From NCBI GenBank assembly GCA_015654945.1, contig JAATGB010000098.1, positions 1 through 46,233 of the forward strand: a stretch of DNA of 46,233 bases, in the 5' to 3' direction. Shown here one piece after another: positions 28,657 through 44,578 of the stretch; position 1 is the stretch's first letter, and every line of letters starts with the position of its first letter. A program made the translations under genes and the position numbers. The stretch comes from Lactobacillales bacterium (lineage in GTDB: Bacteria; Bacillota; Bacilli; Lactobacillales; Vagococcaceae). Under the pieces are notes generated by a model. It was not told where the DNA came from. It saw nothing but the letters and a program-made list of their open reading frames with translations, and did no database searches.

Positions 28657-29142
28657 ATGCGTTGTCCAAAATGTCAGTACAATGGTTCGAAAGTTGTGGA
28701 TAGCAGACCCTCAGATGAAGGTCGTGCAATTAGAAGAAGAAGAGAATGTGAAAAATGTGGCTTTCGTTTTACGACTTTTGAAAGAATTGAAGCGTCCCCG
28801 TTACTCGTAATAAAGAAAAATGGCGATCGTGAAGAATTTAGTCGTGATAAAATTTTAAGAGGATTAATTCGTTCAGCAGAAAAACGTCCCGTTGCAATGG
28901 AGCAAATGGAACAAATCGTCGATCAAGTCGAAAACAAAGTACGAGATTTAGGTGAAAATGAAGTATCTACCACTTTAATTGGCGAATTCGTAATGGAAGA
29001 TTTGGTCAAACTAGATGAAATTGCCTATATTCGTTTTGCCAGCGTCTATCGTCAGTTTAAAGACATGAGCGTCTTTTTAAAAGAATTACAAGATATTGTA
29101 GAGAAAGATGATAAAACCACTGAATCAGATTCAAAAAAATAA
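28657..29142 (+). CDS. nrdR: Transcriptional repressor NrdR
   Basis: 161 residues. The zinc ribbon has Cys3, Cys6, Cys31 and Cys34, with [15 protein letters not shown]; an ATP-cone domain (~49-139) follows. NrdR senses ATP/dATP and represses ribonucleotide reductase genes. It heads the primosome operon nrdR-dnaB-dnaI as in other Bacilli. No reductase gene lies in the window. Confidence 0.97.
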
Positions 29143-29161
29143 TGAGAGAGGGGGATTATTT

Positions 29162-30586
29162 TTGGAAAGAGCTTTGAAACAAGTAAAAGCAAAGGACAGT
29201 TTTGTTGTGAGATTGTCAGCCCCTCTGAATAACACTGATTTTGAAGTCTTAAATTTTCTTTATCAACCAGTAATTGGTGCACATGCCTATGCTTTATGGA
29301 TGGCGTTAAAAGCGGAATTAGTAGAAACTCAATTCGAAAGTACTATCAGCTTACATGCCGAATTGTTTGAACGGATGGATAGTAGTATTCCTGATTTTTA
29401 TAATAGTCGGATCAAGTTAGAAGGAATTGGACTGTTGAAAACTTTTACCAAAGAAGTGGATTACGGACGCGATTTTGTCTATCTATTGTTGCCACCATCG
29501 ACGCCAGAAAAATTTTTCCAAGATGAGCTTTTGAGCTTGTTATTACTAGAAAAAGTAGGTGAAAAAAGGTTTAAACGTCTAATTCAACGCTTTGCTATCC
29601 CTAAGTTTAACGCTAATGAATACCATGAAATTACCAAAAAATTTCTGGATGTGTATGGTTTTCAGTCTGAAAGATTCCAAGCGCAATCAGAAGTTTTAGC
29701 GGAAGGGAAGAGCCATTTTTATTCGGCAGATGAACCGAAAAAAGCAACTGCTGTATCGGATTCGTTTGATTGGACTTATTTTAAAGGTTTGCTTAGTGGA
29801 CTTTATGTGGAAGCGAGTAGTATTGAAAATCTAAAAGAAACAATCTATACGTGGCACCATTTATACGGAATAAACGAATTGGAAATGCGTGATTTTTTGT
29901 CACAATCAGTCGATTATGTAACAAATGAAATTAATCAGAAAGAAGTAGAAAAGAATATTTATCAAGCCTTTCATCAAGAAAAACAGCAGGAAAGTGTTGT
30001 AAATCATTCTTCAGAAACGTCATTATCAGTAGAAGATAAACAAAAATATCGTTACAATAGCTTGCTGCTAAATGGATTTTCAGAAGGTGAAATCGGTGTG
30101 ATCGTTTCCAGTGAAAGTATTGCGCCAATGATTTTTTTGGAGGCAATTAAGAATCAAAAAGGCGGGTTTGTATCTAGATATGAAACGTGGGCAGTGGAAA
30201 GTATTAAGAAAAATGCCAATTTGCCAGATGCGGTCATCAATGTTCTGATTCATTACGTTTTAGTCGCGCAAGGAAATGCGACGTTTGATCAAAAATATGC
30301 GGAACGGATTGCCAATGATTGGGCGCAGAAGCAAATCAGTTCTCCTGAAATGGCGATGGAAAAAGTCAAAGAATTGTTGCAAGAAAAAAATGCGCGACAA
30401 GCAAAGCGTAACCAACCGCAAGCAGCCTATGCACGAAACAAAGCCGGCTCGAATCGAAAAGAATCGTTGCCAGATTGGGCAAACCATGAAGTCGTAGCAG
30501 AAACCCCCTTAACCAAAGAGGAAGAAGCTTACTTTGAACAACGAATGAAAAGATTGGAAACAAATAACAAAGGTGGTGAAAGATAA
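29162..30586 (+). CDS. dnaB: Replication initiation and membrane attachment protein DnaB
   Basis: 474 residues from a TTG at 29162, 7 nt after agggggg-like agggg (29149-29154). An ATG at 29108 inside nrdR lacks a ribosome site and is rejected. This is the Firmicutes DnaB (not the helicase), which helps load the replicative helicase with DnaD and DnaI; it has winged-helix and DnaD-like domains. Its C-terminal tail (RKESLPDWA ... ETPLT ... YFEQRMKRLE, 30455-30559) reappears in the prophage replisome organizer. The last base of its stop overlaps the dnaI ATG. Confidence 0.92.
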   Translation: MERALKQVKAKDSFVVRLSAPLNNTDFEVLNFLYQPVIGAHAYALWMALKAELVETQFESTISLHAELFERMDSSIPDFYNSRIKLEGIGLLKTFTKEVDYGRDFVYLLLPPSTPEKFFQDELLSLLLLEKVGEKRFKRLIQRFAIPKFNANEYHEITKKFLDVYGFQSERFQAQSEVLAEGKSHFYSADEPKKATAVSDSFDWTYFKGLLSGLYVEASSIENLKETIYTWHHLYGINELEMRDFLSQSVDYVTNEINQKEVEKNIYQAFHQEKQQESVVNHSSETSLSVEDKQKYRYNSLLLNGFSEGEIGVIVSSESIAPMIFLEAIKNQKGGFVSRYETWAVESIKKNANLPDAVINVLIHYVLVAQGNATFDQKYAERIANDWAQKQISSPEMAMEKVKELLQEKNARQAKRNQPQAAYARNKAGSNRKESLPDWANHEVVAETPLTKEEEAYFEQRMKRLETNNKGGER

Positions 30587-31515
30587 TGGAAGATGTAGGC
30601 AGAGAGATGTCAAAAGTTTTACAGTCCAGAGAACTGGATGAACGTTTTGATACCTTAATTCAAGCGGTTTTAAATGATGAAGATGTGCAAGCTTTTATTT
30701 TAGAAAACAGAGAACGGTTAACGGATGCAGATATTCAAAAGAGCTATGCAAAGCTCTATGAATTCGTTCAAGAAAAGAAAAAATTCCAATTGAAAGATCC
30801 GACCATGCTTGCGCCAGGCTATGAGCCCCAATTATTTTTGAATTTCCATTACATTGATGTTGCATACATTCCCACAAAAGATCTTTTACTTAAGCAACGT
30901 GAAGCCATGATTCGCAGTCGGGTTCGTGCGATGAATATGCCAAAGGACATTCGTGAAGCAAAGCTTGTTCAATTTACGCAAACGAAAGAACGCAGCCAAG
31001 CGCTGGATGCGGTGATGGATTTTCTTGATGCTTATGAACAGGATCCCAAAGGTTTTTATAAGGGATTGTATTTGCAAGGATCTTTTGGCGTTGGAAAAAG
31101 TTATTTGCTTGGAGCGCTAGCCAATGAATTAGCCGAAAAAGGCTTTGTGAGCACGCTTGTTCATTTCCCAACCTTTGCGGTAGAGATGAAGCAAGCAATT
31201 GGGAAAGATACCATGCTGGACAAGTTAGAGGCGATTAAGACCTCTCCAGTATTAATGCTCGATGATATTGGGGCTGATTCGATGAGCAGCTGGATTCGTG
31301 ACGATGTGTTGGGAATTATTTTACAATATCGAATGCAAGAACAGTTACCAACATTTTTCTCTTCTAATTTTGATATGAAGCAATTAGAAGAAGAGCATCT
31401 AAGAATTTCTCAACGTGGCGAAGATGAGCCTTTGAAAGCAAAGCGGATTATGGAGAGAATTCGTTATCTCGCAGATGAGATTCACATGGTGGGAATCAAT
31501 CGTAGAAATAAGTGA
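30586..31515 (+). CDS. dnaI: Primosomal helicase loader DnaI
   Basis: 309-residue AAA+ ATPase: Walker A GSFGVGKS (165-172), Walker B VLMLDDIG, and the sensor segment PTFFSSNFD. It loads the replicative helicase onto DNA. B. subtilis DnaI has a zinc site in its N-terminal domain with a C-x2-C motif; here the matching region (EKKKFQLKDPTML) has no cysteine, as I recall also for streptococcal DnaI. Start and stop overlap with dnaB (TAATG) shows coupling. Confidence 0.96.
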   Translation: MEDVGREMSKVLQSRELDERFDTLIQAVLNDEDVQAFILENRERLTDADIQKSYAKLYEFVQEKKKFQLKDPTMLAPGYEPQLFLNFHYIDVAYIPTKDLLLKQREAMIRSRVRAMNMPKDIREAKLVQFTQTKERSQALDAVMDFLDAYEQDPKGFYKGLYLQGSFGVGKSYLLGALANELAEKGFVSTLVHFPTFAVEMKQAIGKDTMLDKLEAIKTSPVLMLDDIGADSMSSWIRDDVLGIILQYRMQEQLPTFFSSNFDMKQLEEEHLRISQRGEDEPLKAKRIMERIRYLADEIHMVGINRRNK

Positions 31516-37146: not shown

Positions 37147-37743
37147 TTATTGTATCGGAAAATCCGTTCTGCCAAATTCCGTACCTAAGCCATTTTCAGC
37201 GATGAGCGTGACAGGAGTTGTTGCATCAGTAAGTGTATACGCTACAGCCATTTGAACTGTACCACCCGGCTTAATTTCTTCCATTTGCGAATCTAAAAAT
37301 TTGCTGTCTGGTAAGGAAGCGACATTTAATTCATTGATTGCGTTTGGGTCGTTATCCTGAACAGCCTTAAAATTTGAAATCCAAGACGTGACAGGGTCTA
37401 TAGGCTGTGAGTTGTCGTAATCAGGAGCAACTAATGTATCGTACCAAAAAGCGATTACAGGGCTATCTCCATATTCATTTCCTGTTTCGCCCGGTTGAAT
37501 AATTTTGTGGTCAGTAATCTTTATTGTGTAAGTATTTCCTTTTAAAACTGTTCCATCAAAATTCGCATCTTTTGCGCTTTTAACAAAATCGCTACTTGTT
37601 TCTGATGTTTCTACAGCTGATTCTTTTACTACATCGGAACTTTCAACTTTTTTCGAATTGCTTGAAGAATTTTTTTCTGAACTACACGCTCCTAAAACCG
37701 CTAAGCTTAATACCAATAACCCTAATACTTTAACCTTTTTCAT
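37147..37743 (-). CDS. Prophage-encoded lipoprotein (DUF5067-like)
   Basis: 198 residues. A lipoprotein signal peptide with lipobox LGAC (Cys20), then a Ser/Lys/Glu-rich linker (about 21-55), then a beta-rich domain containing the YTIKITDHKII and KPGGTVQMAVAYTL strands, as in DUF5067 proteins. It would be anchored outside the cell membrane. Lying between repressor and integrase it would be expressed in the lysogen, the place where superinfection-exclusion or other lysogenic-conversion genes sit; that role is inferred. Its own hairpin terminator separates it from int. Confidence 0.8.
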   Translation of the reverse strand: MKKVKVLGLLVLSLAVLGACSSEKNSSSNSKKVESSDVVKESAVETSETSSDFVKSAKDANFDGTVLKGNTYTIKITDHKIIQPGETGNEYGDSPVIAFWYDTLVAPDYDNSQPIDPVTSWISNFKAVQDNDPNAINELNVASLPDSKFLDSQMEEIKPGGTVQMAVAYTLTDATTPVTLIAENGLGTEFGRTDFPIQ

Positions 37744-37765: not shown

Positions 37766-38434
37766 TTATCTACCTATAATAGCATATAAGTATTTGCCAA
37801 TAATTTTGACTTCAATATCCATATCGTTTGTATATTCAAATGCTTTATAATCAGGATTGTAACTATCAGGTTCAAATAAAATTCGATTTGGAGTCTTATA
37901 CATGTGTTTCAAAGTAGCCTCATATCCATTGATTATGACACCGCAAATATCTCCTTGCGAAACATCATCTGTTTTTAGCAAGATAGCTATTGCCCCATCT
38001 GGAATTACTCTATTCATGCTATCCCCATTGACTCTAAGAGCTATAAGATTTTCTTCACCGTATTTTTCAATTACTTCAGATTGGATTTCTATTTCTCCAT
38101 CGATTTCTTCTTCTGCGCCTTCGGGATTTGATGCTACAATTCTACCATAAATGGGGATCGTATTAGATTCAGATGTTGCACCAGATATAGGGATTTCAAA
38201 AGAACTTAGAAATTTGTTTACATATCCTTCTTTCCCATTTAATAAAAAATCAACTGGAACATTAAATAATGAACTTAATTTTGTCAATTCGTCAGTCTGA
38301 ACTTTTCTACTTCCGTTTTCTATCTTGTTCATCATAGACTTTTCTATTCCTAACCTTCGCGCAAGTTCGGCTTGACTCCAGTTCTTGGATTCTCTTAAAT
38401 TAATTATTCTAGAAATCATAGAATCATCTAACAT
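37766..38434 (-). CDS. CI-like prophage repressor (XRE HTH plus S24 peptidase)
   Basis: 222 residues. HTH at about 7-62 (WSQAELARRLGIEKSMMNKIENG), then a LexA/UmuD-type S24 domain with nucleophile Ser139 (NGDSMNRVIPDGA) and Lys176. Such repressors keep lysogeny and cut themselves when RecA is activated. The expected cleavage dipeptide, normally Ala-Gly, appears to be Ala101-Ser102 (GRIVASNPEG). The ATG at 38434 follows aaggag. It is divergent from the Cro-like gene. Confidence 0.93.
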   Translation of the reverse strand: MLDDSMISRIINLRESKNWSQAELARRLGIEKSMMNKIENGSRKVQTDELTKLSSLFNVPVDFLLNGKEGYVNKFLSSFEIPISGATSESNTIPIYGRIVASNPEGAEEEIDGEIEIQSEVIEKYGEENLIALRVNGDSMNRVIPDGAIAILLKTDDVSQGDICGVIINGYEATLKHMYKTPNRILFEPDSYNPDYKAFEYTNDMDIEVKIIGKYLYAIIGR

Positions 38435-38911: not shown

Positions 38912-39670
38912 ATGAATCAAATCCAACTGTTTAATTTTAAAGATCAACCTGTTAGAACCGTGCTTATTGATAACGAACCTTGGTTTGTTGCAAAGGATGT
39001 TACGGAAATTTTAGAACTTAGCAACCCGACAGTGGTTATCAATCGTTTAGACGATGACGAACGGGCTAAGTTGAACTTAGGGCGTCAAGGTGAAACGAAC
39101 ATCGTTAATGAATATGGTCTTTATCAATTAGTCCTTGGTAGTAGAAAACCAGAAGCAAAAGAATTTAAGCGATGGATTACGCACGAAATTATTCCATCTA
39201 TTCGAAAAACTGGTTCGTACTCCATATACAAAGATGAACGTTTTAATATTCCGACGAATTTAATAGATGCTTTGAGGTTGTCGGCTGATTTGGAAGAAGA
39301 ACGGCAAGCGTTGCAAGTGCAAATCGAAACGGACGCTCCATATACATCATTTGGGAAAATTGTTTCTTACTCAAGCAGTGCAGTCAGTATCGGTGAGTTT
39401 TGCAAAATAGTTTATGACAAACATGGAATTTCCATTGGGCGCAATAAAATGTTCGATTGGCTTCGAAACCGCGGTTATCTGATTAAACACGGGAGAGAAC
39501 GAAATAATCCAAAACAACAATATGTTGAACAAGGGTTATTCGTTAGCAAACCGGCAATTATTTCTAGAAGTATCGGAAACGTACAAGAAGCGACAACGTT
39601 AATCACAGGAAAAGGACAAGTTAAAATATCAGATCAACTGCTTAAAGAATTTCAAATTAGTTTAGCATAA
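38912..39670 (+). CDS. Phage antirepressor (Bro-N and KilA-C type domains)
   Basis: 252 residues. The N-terminal Bro-N domain is clear (PWFVAKDVTEILELSN ... RLDDDERAK ... NEYGLYQLVLGSRKPEAKEFKRW-x-T-x-E-I-I-P-S-I-R-K-T-G). The C-terminal half has the antirepressor KilA-C pattern (SIGEFCKI ... IGRNKMFDWLRNRGYLI). Such proteins counteract repressors or control the early genes. ATG 38912 follows gagaggag. Confidence 0.92.
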   Translation: MNQIQLFNFKDQPVRTVLIDNEPWFVAKDVTEILELSNPTVVINRLDDDERAKLNLGRQGETNIVNEYGLYQLVLGSRKPEAKEFKRWITHEIIPSIRKTGSYSIYKDERFNIPTNLIDALRLSADLEEERQALQVQIETDAPYTSFGKIVSYSSSAVSIGEFCKIVYDKHGISIGRNKMFDWLRNRGYLIKHGRERNNPKQQYVEQGLFVSKPAIISRSIGNVQEATTLITGKGQVKISDQLLKEFQISLA

Positions 39671-41418: not shown

Positions 41419-41634
41419 ATGAGCACTTACGACTCACTAGGAGCGCAGATAGAACCGATCGAGCGGAAGGTAGTTGCGTACGACTATCAAGGGCAAGAGA
41501 TTTACGCAGAAGACACCGTGATTGAAATGCCAGATGGAATCTATGTTTTCCTTGGCGATTTAAAAGAATATTTGAACGAACTCGACTACAAAGAATTACT
41601 TGAACTTGTCGAAGCAAAGGAGGTTACAGTGTGA
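41419..41634 (+). CDS. Hypothetical acidic phage protein before YqaJ
   Basis: 71 residues from ATG 41419 (aaaggagagagga upstream). Acidic; contains a strand-turn pattern, IYAEDTVIEMPDGIYVFLGDL, then an acidic helix. Its last bases overlap the GTG of the exonuclease gene (GTGA at 41631), so it is translated with the recombination module. Confidence 0.7.
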   Translation: MSTYDSLGAQIEPIERKVVAYDYQGQEIYAEDTVIEMPDGIYVFLGDLKEYLNELDYKELLELVEAKEVTV

Positions 41635-42575
41635 AACAGTCAACTTTAAAAATGACCCACGAAGAATGGCTTCTAGATAGAAGAAAAGGCTTAGGGGGGA
41701 GCGATATAGCGACTGTTCTAGGGCTGAACAAATGGAAGTCACCTTATCAATTATGGTTAGACAAAACGGGTCAGATTGACGTTAAGGAGCAAGAGCAAAG
41801 CGAACCTGCTTATTGGGGAAACGTTTTGGAAGAGGTGGTAGCTAAAGAGTTCCAAGAACGAACTGGCAAACGAGTAAGAAGGCGGAATCAAGTCTTTGAG
41901 CATCTGAATTATCCATTTTTAAGAGCGAATATCGATCGTGATGTAATTGGAGAAAATGCGATCCTTGAATGCAAAACAGCTAACGCCTTTCTTGGCAAAG
42001 AATGGGAAGGTGAAGAGGTCCCTTTGAGCTATCTTTGTCAAGTACAACACTACATGAATGTTTTAAATAAGGATTATGCGTATTTCGCGGTGCTTGTTGG
42101 AGGGCAAAAGTTTATATGGAAAAAAATTGAACGAGATCAAGAACTGATCGATGCCATCACTAAAAAATTAGTTGATTTTTGGGAAAACAACGTATTAAAA
42201 GGTATCGAACCACCGCTTGACGGATCAGAAGCAACGACAGAATTCGTTAGAAACGCAACACTTAAATTATCAGAAAAAGAAGTCGAGTTTTCTTCGAACG
42301 TTGACGAATTGTTAGATACGAAAGCAGATTTAGAGAAAACGGTCAAAGAATTAACGACTGAAATAAAAAAGATTGACAATCAAATTAAATTTTCTTTTAA
42401 AGAAAAAGATGCAAGTATCGCTATTACACCAAAACGAATTATTACGTATAAATTACAAAAACGAGTGCAATTAAATAAAAAAAAGGTTGAAGAAAAGTAT
42501 CCGGAAATTGTTAAAGACGAATCGTTCTACACAATATCAGAGTTCAGAATTTTAAGAGAAAAGGGGATCAGATAG
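41631..42575 (+). CDS. YqaJ-type phage recombination exonuclease
   Basis: 314 residues with the YqaJ viral recombinase fold. Motifs: the HEEWLLDRRKGLGGSDIATVLGLNKWKSPYQLW start, E in WGNVLEEVVAKEF, the catalytic D and E-x-K in NIDRDVIGENAILECKTA, and the Q-V-Q-H-Y helix. The C-terminal ~100 residues are coiled. It resects double-stranded ends to give substrate for RecT. The start is GTG 41631. Confidence 0.93.
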   Translation: MKQSTLKMTHEEWLLDRRKGLGGSDIATVLGLNKWKSPYQLWLDKTGQIDVKEQEQSEPAYWGNVLEEVVAKEFQERTGKRVRRRNQVFEHLNYPFLRANIDRDVIGENAILECKTANAFLGKEWEGEEVPLSYLCQVQHYMNVLNKDYAYFAVLVGGQKFIWKKIERDQELIDAITKKLVDFWENNVLKGIEPPLDGSEATTEFVRNATLKLSEKEVEFSSNVDELLDTKADLEKTVKELTTEIKKIDNQIKFSFKEKDASIAITPKRIITYKLQKRVQLNKKKVEEKYPEIVKDESFYTISEFRILREKGIR

Positions 42576-42577
42576 AA

Positions 42578-43492
42578 ATGGCGACAAATGAAAGTTTAAA
42601 GAACCAATTAACAGAAACAAAACAAGAAGTTAATGCTCAATCACTAGGCTTTAAATCATTGATGAATACACCGACAATGAAAAAGAAATTCCAGGACATA
42701 TTACACGACAAATCAGACTCATTTATGGGATCGCTTATGACGTTAGTAGGTGGGGACGACTATTTAGCTAAAGCGGAGCCGATGACGATCATTGCTGGAG
42801 CGTTAAAAGCTGCGACGATGGATTTACCTATTGATAAAAATTTAGGTTATGCCTACATCGTTCCGTTTAACCGGAGCGAAAAAGTTGGTAGCAAATGGAT
42901 TAAGCACAACGAAGCACAGTTCATTCTTGGGTACAAAGGATATATTCAACTGGCTCAACGATCAGGACAATACAAAGCGTTAAACGCATTAGAAATTTAT
43001 GAAGGTCAATTAGTCAGCTGGAATCCTCTAACGGAGGAGTTTGTTTTTGATTACGAAGCAAAACAATCGGATGAAGTCGTCGGGTATGTCGGATTTTTCG
43101 AATTATTAAACGGTTTTAAAAAGACTGTCTATTGGACCAAACAAGAAATTGAGAGCCATCGAATCAAAAATGCCAAAGGATATGAAAAAGAAAAATTAAG
43201 TGGTGCGTGGAAGGATAACTACGATGCAATGGCCACAAAAACGGTTTTAAGAAACCTTTTAAGCAAGTGGGGCATTTTATCAGTAGAAATGCAAACAGCC
43301 GTTATATCCGACGAGAAAGTATTCAGAGCAACGACAGAAGACGGTTCGTTGATTGAAGAGGTAGAAATTAAGCAAGCCGAACCTGCAACAGAGGAACCAG
43401 AAGAGAAATTAAATTTTCAACGTGATCAAGAGAATGAAGAAAGTCAAACAGCATTATTTGATGATAAGAAACCGCCATTAAGTGATGATTAA
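42578..43492 (+). CDS. recT: RecT single-strand annealing protein
   Basis: 304 residues of RecT family: the AKAEPMTIIAGALKAATMDLPIDKNLGYAYIVPF core, QFILGYKGYIQLAQRSGQY and KDNYDAMATKTVLRNLLSKWG. It anneals complementary strands. Two bases after YqaJ, forming a RecE/RecT-like pair. An acidic disordered tail (about 270-304) may bind SSB or other partners. Confidence 0.96.
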   Translation: MATNESLKNQLTETKQEVNAQSLGFKSLMNTPTMKKKFQDILHDKSDSFMGSLMTLVGGDDYLAKAEPMTIIAGALKAATMDLPIDKNLGYAYIVPFNRSEKVGSKWIKHNEAQFILGYKGYIQLAQRSGQYKALNALEIYEGQLVSWNPLTEEFVFDYEAKQSDEVVGYVGFFELLNGFKKTVYWTKQEIESHRIKNAKGYEKEKLSGAWKDNYDAMATKTVLRNLLSKWGILSVEMQTAVISDEKVFRATTEDGSLIEEVEIKQAEPATEEPEEKLNFQRDQENEESQTALFDDKKPPLSDD

Positions 43493-43561: not shown

Positions 43562-44578
43562 GTGGCAATTTATCGACAGCTACACACCACTTTTTGGAAA
43601 GATGATTTTATAGGAAATTGCAGCCAAAAAGAAAAACTATTCTTCCTCTACCTGATTTCTAACGACAACACAACTCAAAGCGGTGTGTATGAATTTAACA
43701 AGCGATATGCCATATTTGAGTTAGGCGTCAGCCAATCGGAAATAGAGGAAATGATCAACAAATTTCATAAATATAAAAAAATCATATATGACAGAGAAAC
43801 AAATGAAATTCTTATTGTGAACTGGCTGAAATATAACAACGCCAATTCGCCAAAAGTGTCAACGGTAATCGACAAAGAATTAAGAGATATCAAATCGATT
43901 GAATTTAAAAAAGTGATCATCAAAAAATGCTCTGAATATAAGTATCCGATACGGACAAAAATAGAGAATATAGGCAATCCAAGTAAAAAATCTGAACAGA
44001 AAAGCTTGGATACGGTATCAATACCCTATCAATACCCTATCGATATAGTACCGATAGAGTATCCATATAGTACCGATACTGATCCACAACAGAACAGAAC
44101 AGAACAGAACAGCAATACAATACAACAGAACAGAACAGCAACAGAACAGAAGACCGATGCGGTTAATCAGGCCGACACGGATACTGATTCTAAGCTGACC
44201 CCTTACAAATTTTTTCAAGAGTGCTTTGGAACTCTTAATTCTGTCAACTCCGAAGATATCACATATTGGATTTCTGATCTAGGAGAAGACTTGGTCTGTG
44301 AAGCTATGAAAAGAGCGGCTCTTGACAATAAGAGTTATAGCTACGCAAAAGGAATCATGAAAAAGTGGGCAAAGAATAATATTACGACAATGGAACAGGT
44401 ACTTGCTGAAGATGTAAAGTTCGAAAATAACCGAGTGAAGAGCTACAACAGCAACCCGTCGCCTCGCAAAGAAACGCTGCCTGAATGGGCGACAGCTGAA
44501 CAGGCAGAAGAAACGCCGCTAACGGCAGAGGAAGAGGAATACTTCAAAGAGCGGATGAAAAAATTGAATAAGGGGTGA
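43562..44578 (+). CDS. Phage replisome organizer (DnaD-like, origin-binding)
   Basis: 338 residues. The N-terminal part (1-~105, MAIYRQLHTTFWKDDF start) is the winged-helix replisome organizer domain; a variable linker (~130-205) follows; then a DnaD-like domain (~212-285) with the DnaD family motif Y261-x3-I265-x3-W269. The final 35 residues match the C-terminal tail of host DnaB. Related phage proteins bind the phage origin and recruit host DnaI and helicase. The linker-coding DNA holds the 11-bp and 5-bp repeats described separately. The start follows acaggagg; GTG at 43562 initiates. Confidence 0.92.
   Translation: MAIYRQLHTTFWKDDFIGNCSQKEKLFFLYLISNDNTTQSGVYEFNKRYAIFELGVSQSEIEEMINKFHKYKKIIYDRETNEILIVNWLKYNNANSPKVSTVIDKELRDIKSIEFKKVIIKKCSEYKYPIRTKIENIGNPSKKSEQKSLDTVSIPYQYPIDIVPIEYPYSTDTDPQQNRTEQNSNTIQQNRTATEQKTDAVNQADTDTDSKLTPYKFFQECFGTLNSVNSEDITYWISDLGEDLVCEAMKRAALDNKSYSYAKGIMKKWAKNNITTMEQVLAEDVKFENNRVKSYNSNPSPRKETLPEWATAEQAEETPLTAEEEEYFKERMKKLNKG
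44016..44081. repeat. Six contiguous 11-bp iterons inside the replisome organizer gene (putative phage origin)
   Basis: Units at 44016, 44027, 44038, 44049, 44060 and 44071: TATCAATACCC twice, TATCGATATAG, TACCGATAGAG, TATCCATATAG and TACCGATACTG. Consensus TAYCNATANNS; seven positions are invariant or two-fold. The 11-bp unit shifts frame each time, so the regularity is of DNA, not protein. Confidence 0.8.
44088..44149. repeat. Ten copies of the 5-bp repeat AACAG next to the iterons
   Basis: AACAG x5 (44088-44112), an 11-bp interruption with two CAATA-like units, AACAG x3 (44124-44138), one C, AACAG x2 (44140-44149). The top strand is almost free of T. It encodes a Q/N/R/T/E linker. Confidence 0.85.

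Follow-up and report, generated by a model that had tools for sequence, protein, structure and literature searches.

How Gram-positive phages and theta plasmids recruit the helicase when they have no loader of their own is so far poorly defined. Phage lambda encodes a separate loader, P, which delivers the host helicase to its origin. A different arrangement is raised as a question by a prophage in a contig of a Lactobacillales bacterium of the family Vagococcaceae (JAATGB010000098.1 of assembly GCA_015654945.1, positions 1 to 46,233; this whole stretch of 46,233 nucleotides is called the window below, and features lie on its plus strand unless the minus strand is given). Its replisome organizer, a protein of 338 amino acids with a GTG start (43562..44578), is recognised from the list of open reading frames (ORFs), from the Pfam domain PF07261 and from PHROGs matches to replisome organizers and DnaD-like helicase loaders, and it ends in a tail resembling that of the host helicase co-loader DnaB. 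What does a phage initiator do with such a tail? Our answer, which draws on analogy with Bacillus subtilis, is that it is very probably a DnaI-docking element that would recruit the host DnaI:helicase complex and replace DnaD and DnaB at the phage origin, with no loader of the phage's own.

The shared tail and its putative docking site

Host DnaB (29108..30586; 492 residues) is identified by its match to PDB 29km (B. subtilis DnaB), and alignment with the organizer places its C-terminal tail from residue 450 onwards (30455..30583). The organizer tail, R302-G338 (44465..44575), is delimited by BLASTP and by assembly and profile searches. Over 35 residues without gaps (44465-44569 of the organizer, 30455-30559 of DnaB) 22 are identical, the number already counted in a first-pass annotation of the window; its remark that codons differ at many of the shared residues also holds, only 11 of the 22 being encoded by the same codon and 73/105 nucleotides being identical. 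In a search of the complete assembly (2.33 Mb) at E<=10, the organizer tail as query has two hits, its own locus (E 2e-19) and DnaB (E 4e-10). A tail profile, of which this tail is itself one row, finds in the same genome the organizer tail at E 1.6e-16 and besides it only DnaB at E<=0.01, the same two places as the single-sequence search.

The BLASTP match between the two proteins (E 5e-14) is significant only in the C-terminal part and reaches weakly into PF07261 (DnaB_2/DDBH2), which stands just N-terminal to the tail in both, at residues 216-282 of the organizer (44207..44407; 51.3 bits, cutoff 22) and 345-419 of DnaB. The earlier statement that there is no obvious alignment of the rest of the two proteins was therefore incomplete. 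The organizer's PF07261 is nearer to that of host DnaD proteins than to that of DnaB. The organizer tail contains LP[DE]W and lies at the C-terminus, after PF07261 and a flexible linker, as the DnaB tail does. The organizer is not a second DnaB, having 338 residues against about 470-500 for DnaB with its N-terminal and middle domains. The DnaD-type motif [VI]P[LM]xNW, discussed below, was not found within 30 residues of its C-terminus, and its end is of the DnaB type.

In B. subtilis the loading cascade runs from DnaA through DnaD, DnaB and DnaI to the helicase. The C-terminal tail (CTT, residues 412-472) of DnaB is essential and binds the AAA+ domain of DnaI, according to an alanine scan, two-hybrid assays and an AlphaFold 3 (AF3) model (NAR July 2026, PMC13326638). 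K456, M459, M460 and L466 of this tail are required for DnaI binding, and the surface proposed on DnaI comprises F131, V134, F145 and L152 (PMC13326638). Every residue of the B. subtilis tail sequence was compared with PDB 29km and confirmed. Because the DnaB CTT binds the DnaI AAA+ domain, the proposal of the first-pass annotation that the organizer tail may be a docking peptide for DnaI or the helicase is, as regards DnaI and by analogy, well supported.

The hydrophobic residues M459/M463/L466 of B. subtilis are spaced as F476/M480/L483 in the window DnaB and F328/M332/L335 in the organizer, the register being read from the alignment; the pattern Phi-x3-Phi-x2-Phi is present in 56/56 DnaB tails and 40/41 tails of mobile elements, against 12% of shuffled DnaB tails. 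The gene of host DnaI, the helicase loader and proposed receptor of both tails (30586..31515; Pfam DnaI_N; matches 4m4w_J, 2w58_A and 5he8_A), lies directly 3' of the DnaB gene. In its stretch L127-L147 (30964..31026), L127, F130, L140 and L147 align with the four B. subtilis contact positions (PMC13326638), and the surface stays hydrophobic. An AlphaFold2 model of the organizer, built on a 3-sequence alignment and with a mean predicted local distance difference test (pLDDT) of 61.8, gives the stretch 296-319 as low-confidence and disordered and predicts a C-terminal helix at residues 322-335 (44525..44566), which holds F328, M332 and L335, with a block pLDDT of about 77 and then 63.

In the mechanism that we propose, a disordered spacer with LP[DE]W would lead into a short amphipathic helix, F328-x3-M332-x2-L335, which, like the DnaB tail, would dock on the AAA+ domain of host DnaI at its hydrophobic surface. 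The N-terminal part of the organizer would bind the phage origin while the tail recruits the host DnaI:DnaC helicase directly, so that the phage would not need a loader; the organizer would in this way cover the jobs of DnaD and DnaB at the phage origin, and DnaB would be bypassed.

Tails and loaders of other mobile elements

In the genomes of the family the tail profile finds DnaB in 29/29 and 14 further matches. In 80 chosen genomes it finds DnaB in 80/80, a figure partly produced by construction, as the genomes were picked from families whose DnaB fits the profile, and, at E<=0.0011, some 60 further places; frames that look unrelated and match only in part come in from E 0.003 onwards. The non-DnaB matches that were read, which leave out a few of the approximately 60 (for example G061:C58; G, C and L numbers are our handles for genomes, contigs and loci), are replication initiators or what remains of them; in one set, 0 to 17 residues follow the tail before the protein ends. 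None of those read, down to E about 1e-3 in the 80 genomes, is an unrelated non-replication protein. The profile search recommended earlier across DnaB, DnaD and phage organizers returned DnaB, organizers and plasmid Reps, and no DnaD-sized frame among the matches listed.

The carriers include PF07261 organizers with several kinds of N-terminal domain, a Phg_2220_C organizer (L042), the O-like organizers L060 and L070 (by PHROGs; L061-L064 and L072 are similar by eye) and the Rep_3 plasmid Reps L047 and L049 (by Pfam), and the tail is present on named plasmids of Vagococcus fluvialis, Carnobacterium sp., Desemzia incerta and Jeotgalibaca dankookensis, among others. Of 31 PF07261 organizers listed, 26 fit the tail profile at E<=0.05 (G118:C5 in part); three of the other five have a DnaD-type tail, L137 is tailless with its own loader, and L140 has a divergent DnaB-like tail, judged by eye. 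Other searches returned less: the tail alone had no match in a phage sequence collection, the B. subtilis DnaB tail as a single query against 398 genomes of the class gave mostly DnaB itself and one organizer-sized frame (G511), single organizer proteins as queries in viral contigs gave few loci, and a scan of genome contigs gave one named relative, Vagococcus sp. DIV0080.

Short frames with the tail (42, 67 and 83 residues) were considered as separate small proteins, which by eye they do not resemble; two adjoin C-terminal remnants of Rep_3 in another frame, and one has a tail similar to that of the L009 organizer. L043 and L075 are decayed remnants of Rep_3 genes in which the DnaB-type tail is still recognisable in another frame. 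L049 (G050:C6) is a Rep_3 plasmid of ~5.09 kb present as tandem copies in one contig, with the Rep frame broken in some of them. The DnaD-like protein of Streptococcus phage Javan583 (L297:3034-3570) apparently has two successive tail-like segments, NVPAWALEE... and PVPEWAEKV....

A second class of initiators ends like host DnaD. The motif [VI]P[LM]xNW closes DnaD in 20/20 genomes read, and in B. subtilis the end of DnaD, W229 included, is essential and binds DnaB (PMC10201431; PMC13326638). VPLYNWL, the DnaB-binding motif of DnaD, ends Reps and organizers of this class; the DnaD-type motif is present near the end of 15 of the 1096 ORFs in loci L001-L155, and each of these encodes a Rep_3 protein or an organizer. 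Among 61 distinct Rep_3 C-termini read (55, plus L047, L049, L068, L069, L077 and, from L073, the second Rep; the count leaves out short fragments and tandem copies), 26 have the DnaD-type motif, nine the DnaB-type tail and 24 neither, and two are masked. Over 236 residues the Rep of G050, which has a DnaB-type tail, shares 77% identity with that of Tetragenococcus halophilus pSKPB18, which has a DnaD-type tail, and the plug has therefore been exchanged on a conserved body. The end of the G073 prophage organizer, VSEDFIAAMDIWKD, resembles a different DnaD end, VSDDFLKAMDLWKD, of related genomes. The DnaD-type tails were not found to follow their host significantly at the variable fourth residue of the motif (7/20 vs 1/11, Fisher p=0.20). 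Reps and some organizers ending in [VI]P[LM]xNW or close to it are found at L115, L118, L129, L130, L136, L138, L139, L179, L191 and L255. The Streptococcus-like prophage organizer L289, compared with L281-L283, carries a copy of a distinct Streptococcus-like DnaD end, VSxDFxxAMDxWKD.

Tail copies of the DnaB type tend to match the DnaB of their own host. For 38 mobile tails (two without a host DnaB and one duplicate being left out), the own-host DnaB has a mean z of 1.72 among 56 DnaBs, against 0.08 when hosts are shuffled (p=2e-5, 50,000 shuffles); p is 5e-5 with shuffles within families and has a median of 0.001 with one tail per genus (14 genera), and residue-shuffled tails give a z of 0.22, maximum 0.62. 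The best-matching DnaB is of the same family for 30/38 tails (10.8 expected), and the own host is among the top five DnaBs for 24/38 (3.4 expected). In G511 the prophage organizer tail fits the DnaB of the same genome best (score 118, ahead of the next at 87), and plasmid Reps of S. salivarius and S. gallolyticus have a Streptococcus-type DnaB as top match; the labels Streptococcus (G046/G073) and Staphylococcaceae (G511) are themselves inferred. Exceptions are the S. equorum Rep, phage phi575 and the TP901-1 Rep, whose top match is not the nearest host in a panel that held no Lactococcus DnaB, and an E. faecalis plasmid with a Streptococcus-type tail.

Other elements bring a loader. A DnaC-like loader (L137; phrog_50) has 21 matches in the 80 genomes; L233 was dropped from the count, its upstream neighbour being unlike an initiator and the locus possibly IS21. 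The initiators upstream of this loader have a DnaB- or DnaD-type tail in 0/20 cases, and a loader is found in the flanks (mostly 4 kb on each side) of 0/45 organizer loci with a DnaB-type, DnaD-type or divergent tail. These loci were selected by having a loader or a tail, and counts by family, like that of the PF07261 organizers above, are fairer: of ten Phg_2220_C proteins in the 80 genomes eight have the loader and no tail, one has the tail and no loader (L042) and one has neither (G009). The last is a satellite-like element (L244, G009:C1:1246500-1256000; the stretch is partly masked) with a Phg_2220_C organizer without tail or recognised loader. Named phages fit this picture: a loader without a tail is seen in Javan197 and vB_SpsX-DS3, and Geobacillus E2 is tailless too, its neighbouring gene being annotated as a helicase. 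The contigs related to the window (L009-L011) have no loader in their flanks. Initiators that adjoin a loader often end in an acidic tip (DDLPF, NLPF, DDFPF) resembling that of SSB (L220, L224, L226, L227, L228, L230, L231, L294), possibly the docking site for the phage loader.

Alternative explanations

Several observations weigh against docking on DnaI and against its extension to other elements. K456 and M460 of B. subtilis have no clear counterpart in the window tails; PMC13326638 describes the DnaB-DnaI interface as less well kept in pathogens and cites an earlier two-hybrid study in which the C-terminal domain (CTD) and CTT of DnaB bound the helicase. Neither tail is present on 24/59 complete distinct Rep_3 C-termini, and these Reps presumably still replicate. 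Nine rows of the host-matching data (one a duplicate) rank their own host 23-34 of 56 and do not follow it. Finally, the contig stops 1.65 kb past the organizer, and a loader could lie further downstream in the prophage.

The two-hybrid result favours docking of the tail on the replicative helicase DnaC, and the RepA_N Rep of pSK41, which binds DnaG (PMC5703833), favours another host factor, be it DnaD, primase or a further one, instead of DnaI. We hold such partners to be unlikely: helicase binding survived in every single alanine variant of DnaB, while DnaI binding fell with changes at four residues of the tail (PMC13326638), and the initiators of phages with a loader of their own, able to replace DnaI, lack the tails.

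Common descent would have the organizer and DnaB derive from one PF07261 protein, the tail being inherited and not borrowed, and the position of PF07261 directly before the tail in both proteins is what this would predict. The core and the tail point in different directions. The PF07261 core of the organizer has a mean score of 75.5 against 20 host DnaDs (best 90) and of 35.6 against 56 DnaBs (own 44), whereas the tail reaches a score of 126 with its own DnaB and of 21 with the C-termini of DnaD; the core is likewise more DnaD-like in 11/11 further organizers tested. DnaD itself does not carry the tail, no DnaD-sized frame being among the tail-profile matches in the 80 genomes, where DnaD frames were looked for among the matches listed. 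As judged from these scores the organizer is a mosaic, with a DnaD-like PF07261 core and a DnaB-like tail, so that the tail did not come down from DnaB along with the core. The tail is also carried by Rep_3, Phg_2220_C and O-like proteins, it follows the host lineage, and Reps 77% identical carry different tails. Contradicted by the core and tail scores, the unrelated folds and the host matching, common descent was rejected as very improbable, and the earlier suggestion that the tail was borrowed by the phage is strengthened by the same observations and by the mutual exclusion with phage loaders.

The tail could otherwise act as a decoy, titrating DnaI away and so stopping initiation in the host, in the way that ORF104 of phage 77 binds and inhibits the DnaI AAA+ domain (PMC4887207). 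That inhibitor is paired with the phage's own loader, which the tail-bearing elements here do not have, and plasmids carry the tail although they have no obvious gain from stopping the host, so that we give this possibility very little credence. That the tails are convergent low-complexity acidic or basic C-termini without specific function was rejected as next to impossible, for although they are E/K-rich and the spacer is predicted as disordered in the single-chain model, profile E-values reach 1e-19 within single genomes, LP[DE]W and the helix pattern come in a set order, and composition, to go by the residue shuffles, does not explain the host matching.

Prophage setting and significance

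The organizer belongs to a phage replication module, with a YqaJ-type recombinase (41631..42575) and RecT (42578..43492) upstream. Further to the left are a phage integrase (35923..37065, minus strand), a CI-like repressor with helix-turn-helix and peptidase S24 domains (37766..38434, minus strand) and an antirepressor with Bro-N and KilAC domains (38912..39670), and these five genes on the organizer's left mark the element as a prophage. In the lysogeny region a DUF5067 protein (37147-37743, minus strand) is encoded between the genes of the integrase and the repressor.

By sequence the organizer is a member of the DnaD-like phage helicase loaders or replisome organizers (PF07261; phrog_186, phrog_6251), in whose family names and descriptions, as shown, the equivalence of the tail to that of DnaB is absent. 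Lambda P, phage 77 ORF013 and the DnaC-like loaders also bring in the host helicase at the origin of the phage, but as separate loaders, whereas here the host loader would be recruited by a tail; the two solutions are mutually exclusive in the examined loci. The B. subtilis DnaB CTT shares with the organizer tail the C-terminal position, the LPDW motif and the hydrophobic helix spacing, but is known for the host co-loader only, phage and plasmid initiators not being discussed in the available parts of PMC13326638. The RepA_N initiators of the pSK41 type also have a host-genus-specific C-terminal part in contact with the replication machinery of the host, but it is a folded DnaG-binding domain and not a transferable DnaB- or DnaD-type tail (PMC5703833). 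Phage 77 ORF104 is a phage protein bound to the AAA+ domain of DnaI, as the organizer would be, and differs as an inhibitor paired with a phage loader (PMC4887207). We found no description of a DnaB or DnaD tail shared by initiators of phages or plasmids in the open-licence literature of PubMed Central, the available parts of PMC5499656 included, to which preprints and most subscription papers do not belong. The role of the DnaB tail is already known; its spread over mobile elements, the host matching and the exchange with a DnaD tail or a loader appear to be new.

The best reading of the two classes is that DnaB-type and DnaD-type tails are interchangeable C-terminal plugs into different steps of the DnaD-DnaB-DnaI cascade. 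An element that binds its own origin would enter the cascade at DnaB with a DnaD-type tail, at DnaI with a DnaB-type tail, or with a loader of its own. We lean towards extending this to the mobile elements of Bacilli in general, which would use portable, host-matched C-terminal plugs to enter the loading cascade at a chosen step, those with their own loader having neither. Since the plugs cross unrelated folds and are swapped on similar Reps, they may help to set the hosts in which an element can replicate; host-matched tails would offer a molecular reason for the host preference of replicons.

A host-matched tail copied from DnaB or DnaD would be a direct and testable answer to how elements without a loader recruit the helicase. 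The helicase-loading step of an unfamiliar replicon could be read from its last 40 residues, and the natural tail variants could serve to map the DnaB-DnaI and DnaD-DnaB interfaces. The presence of host-matched tails on many viruses and plasmids suggests a common plug for taking over the copying of host DNA.
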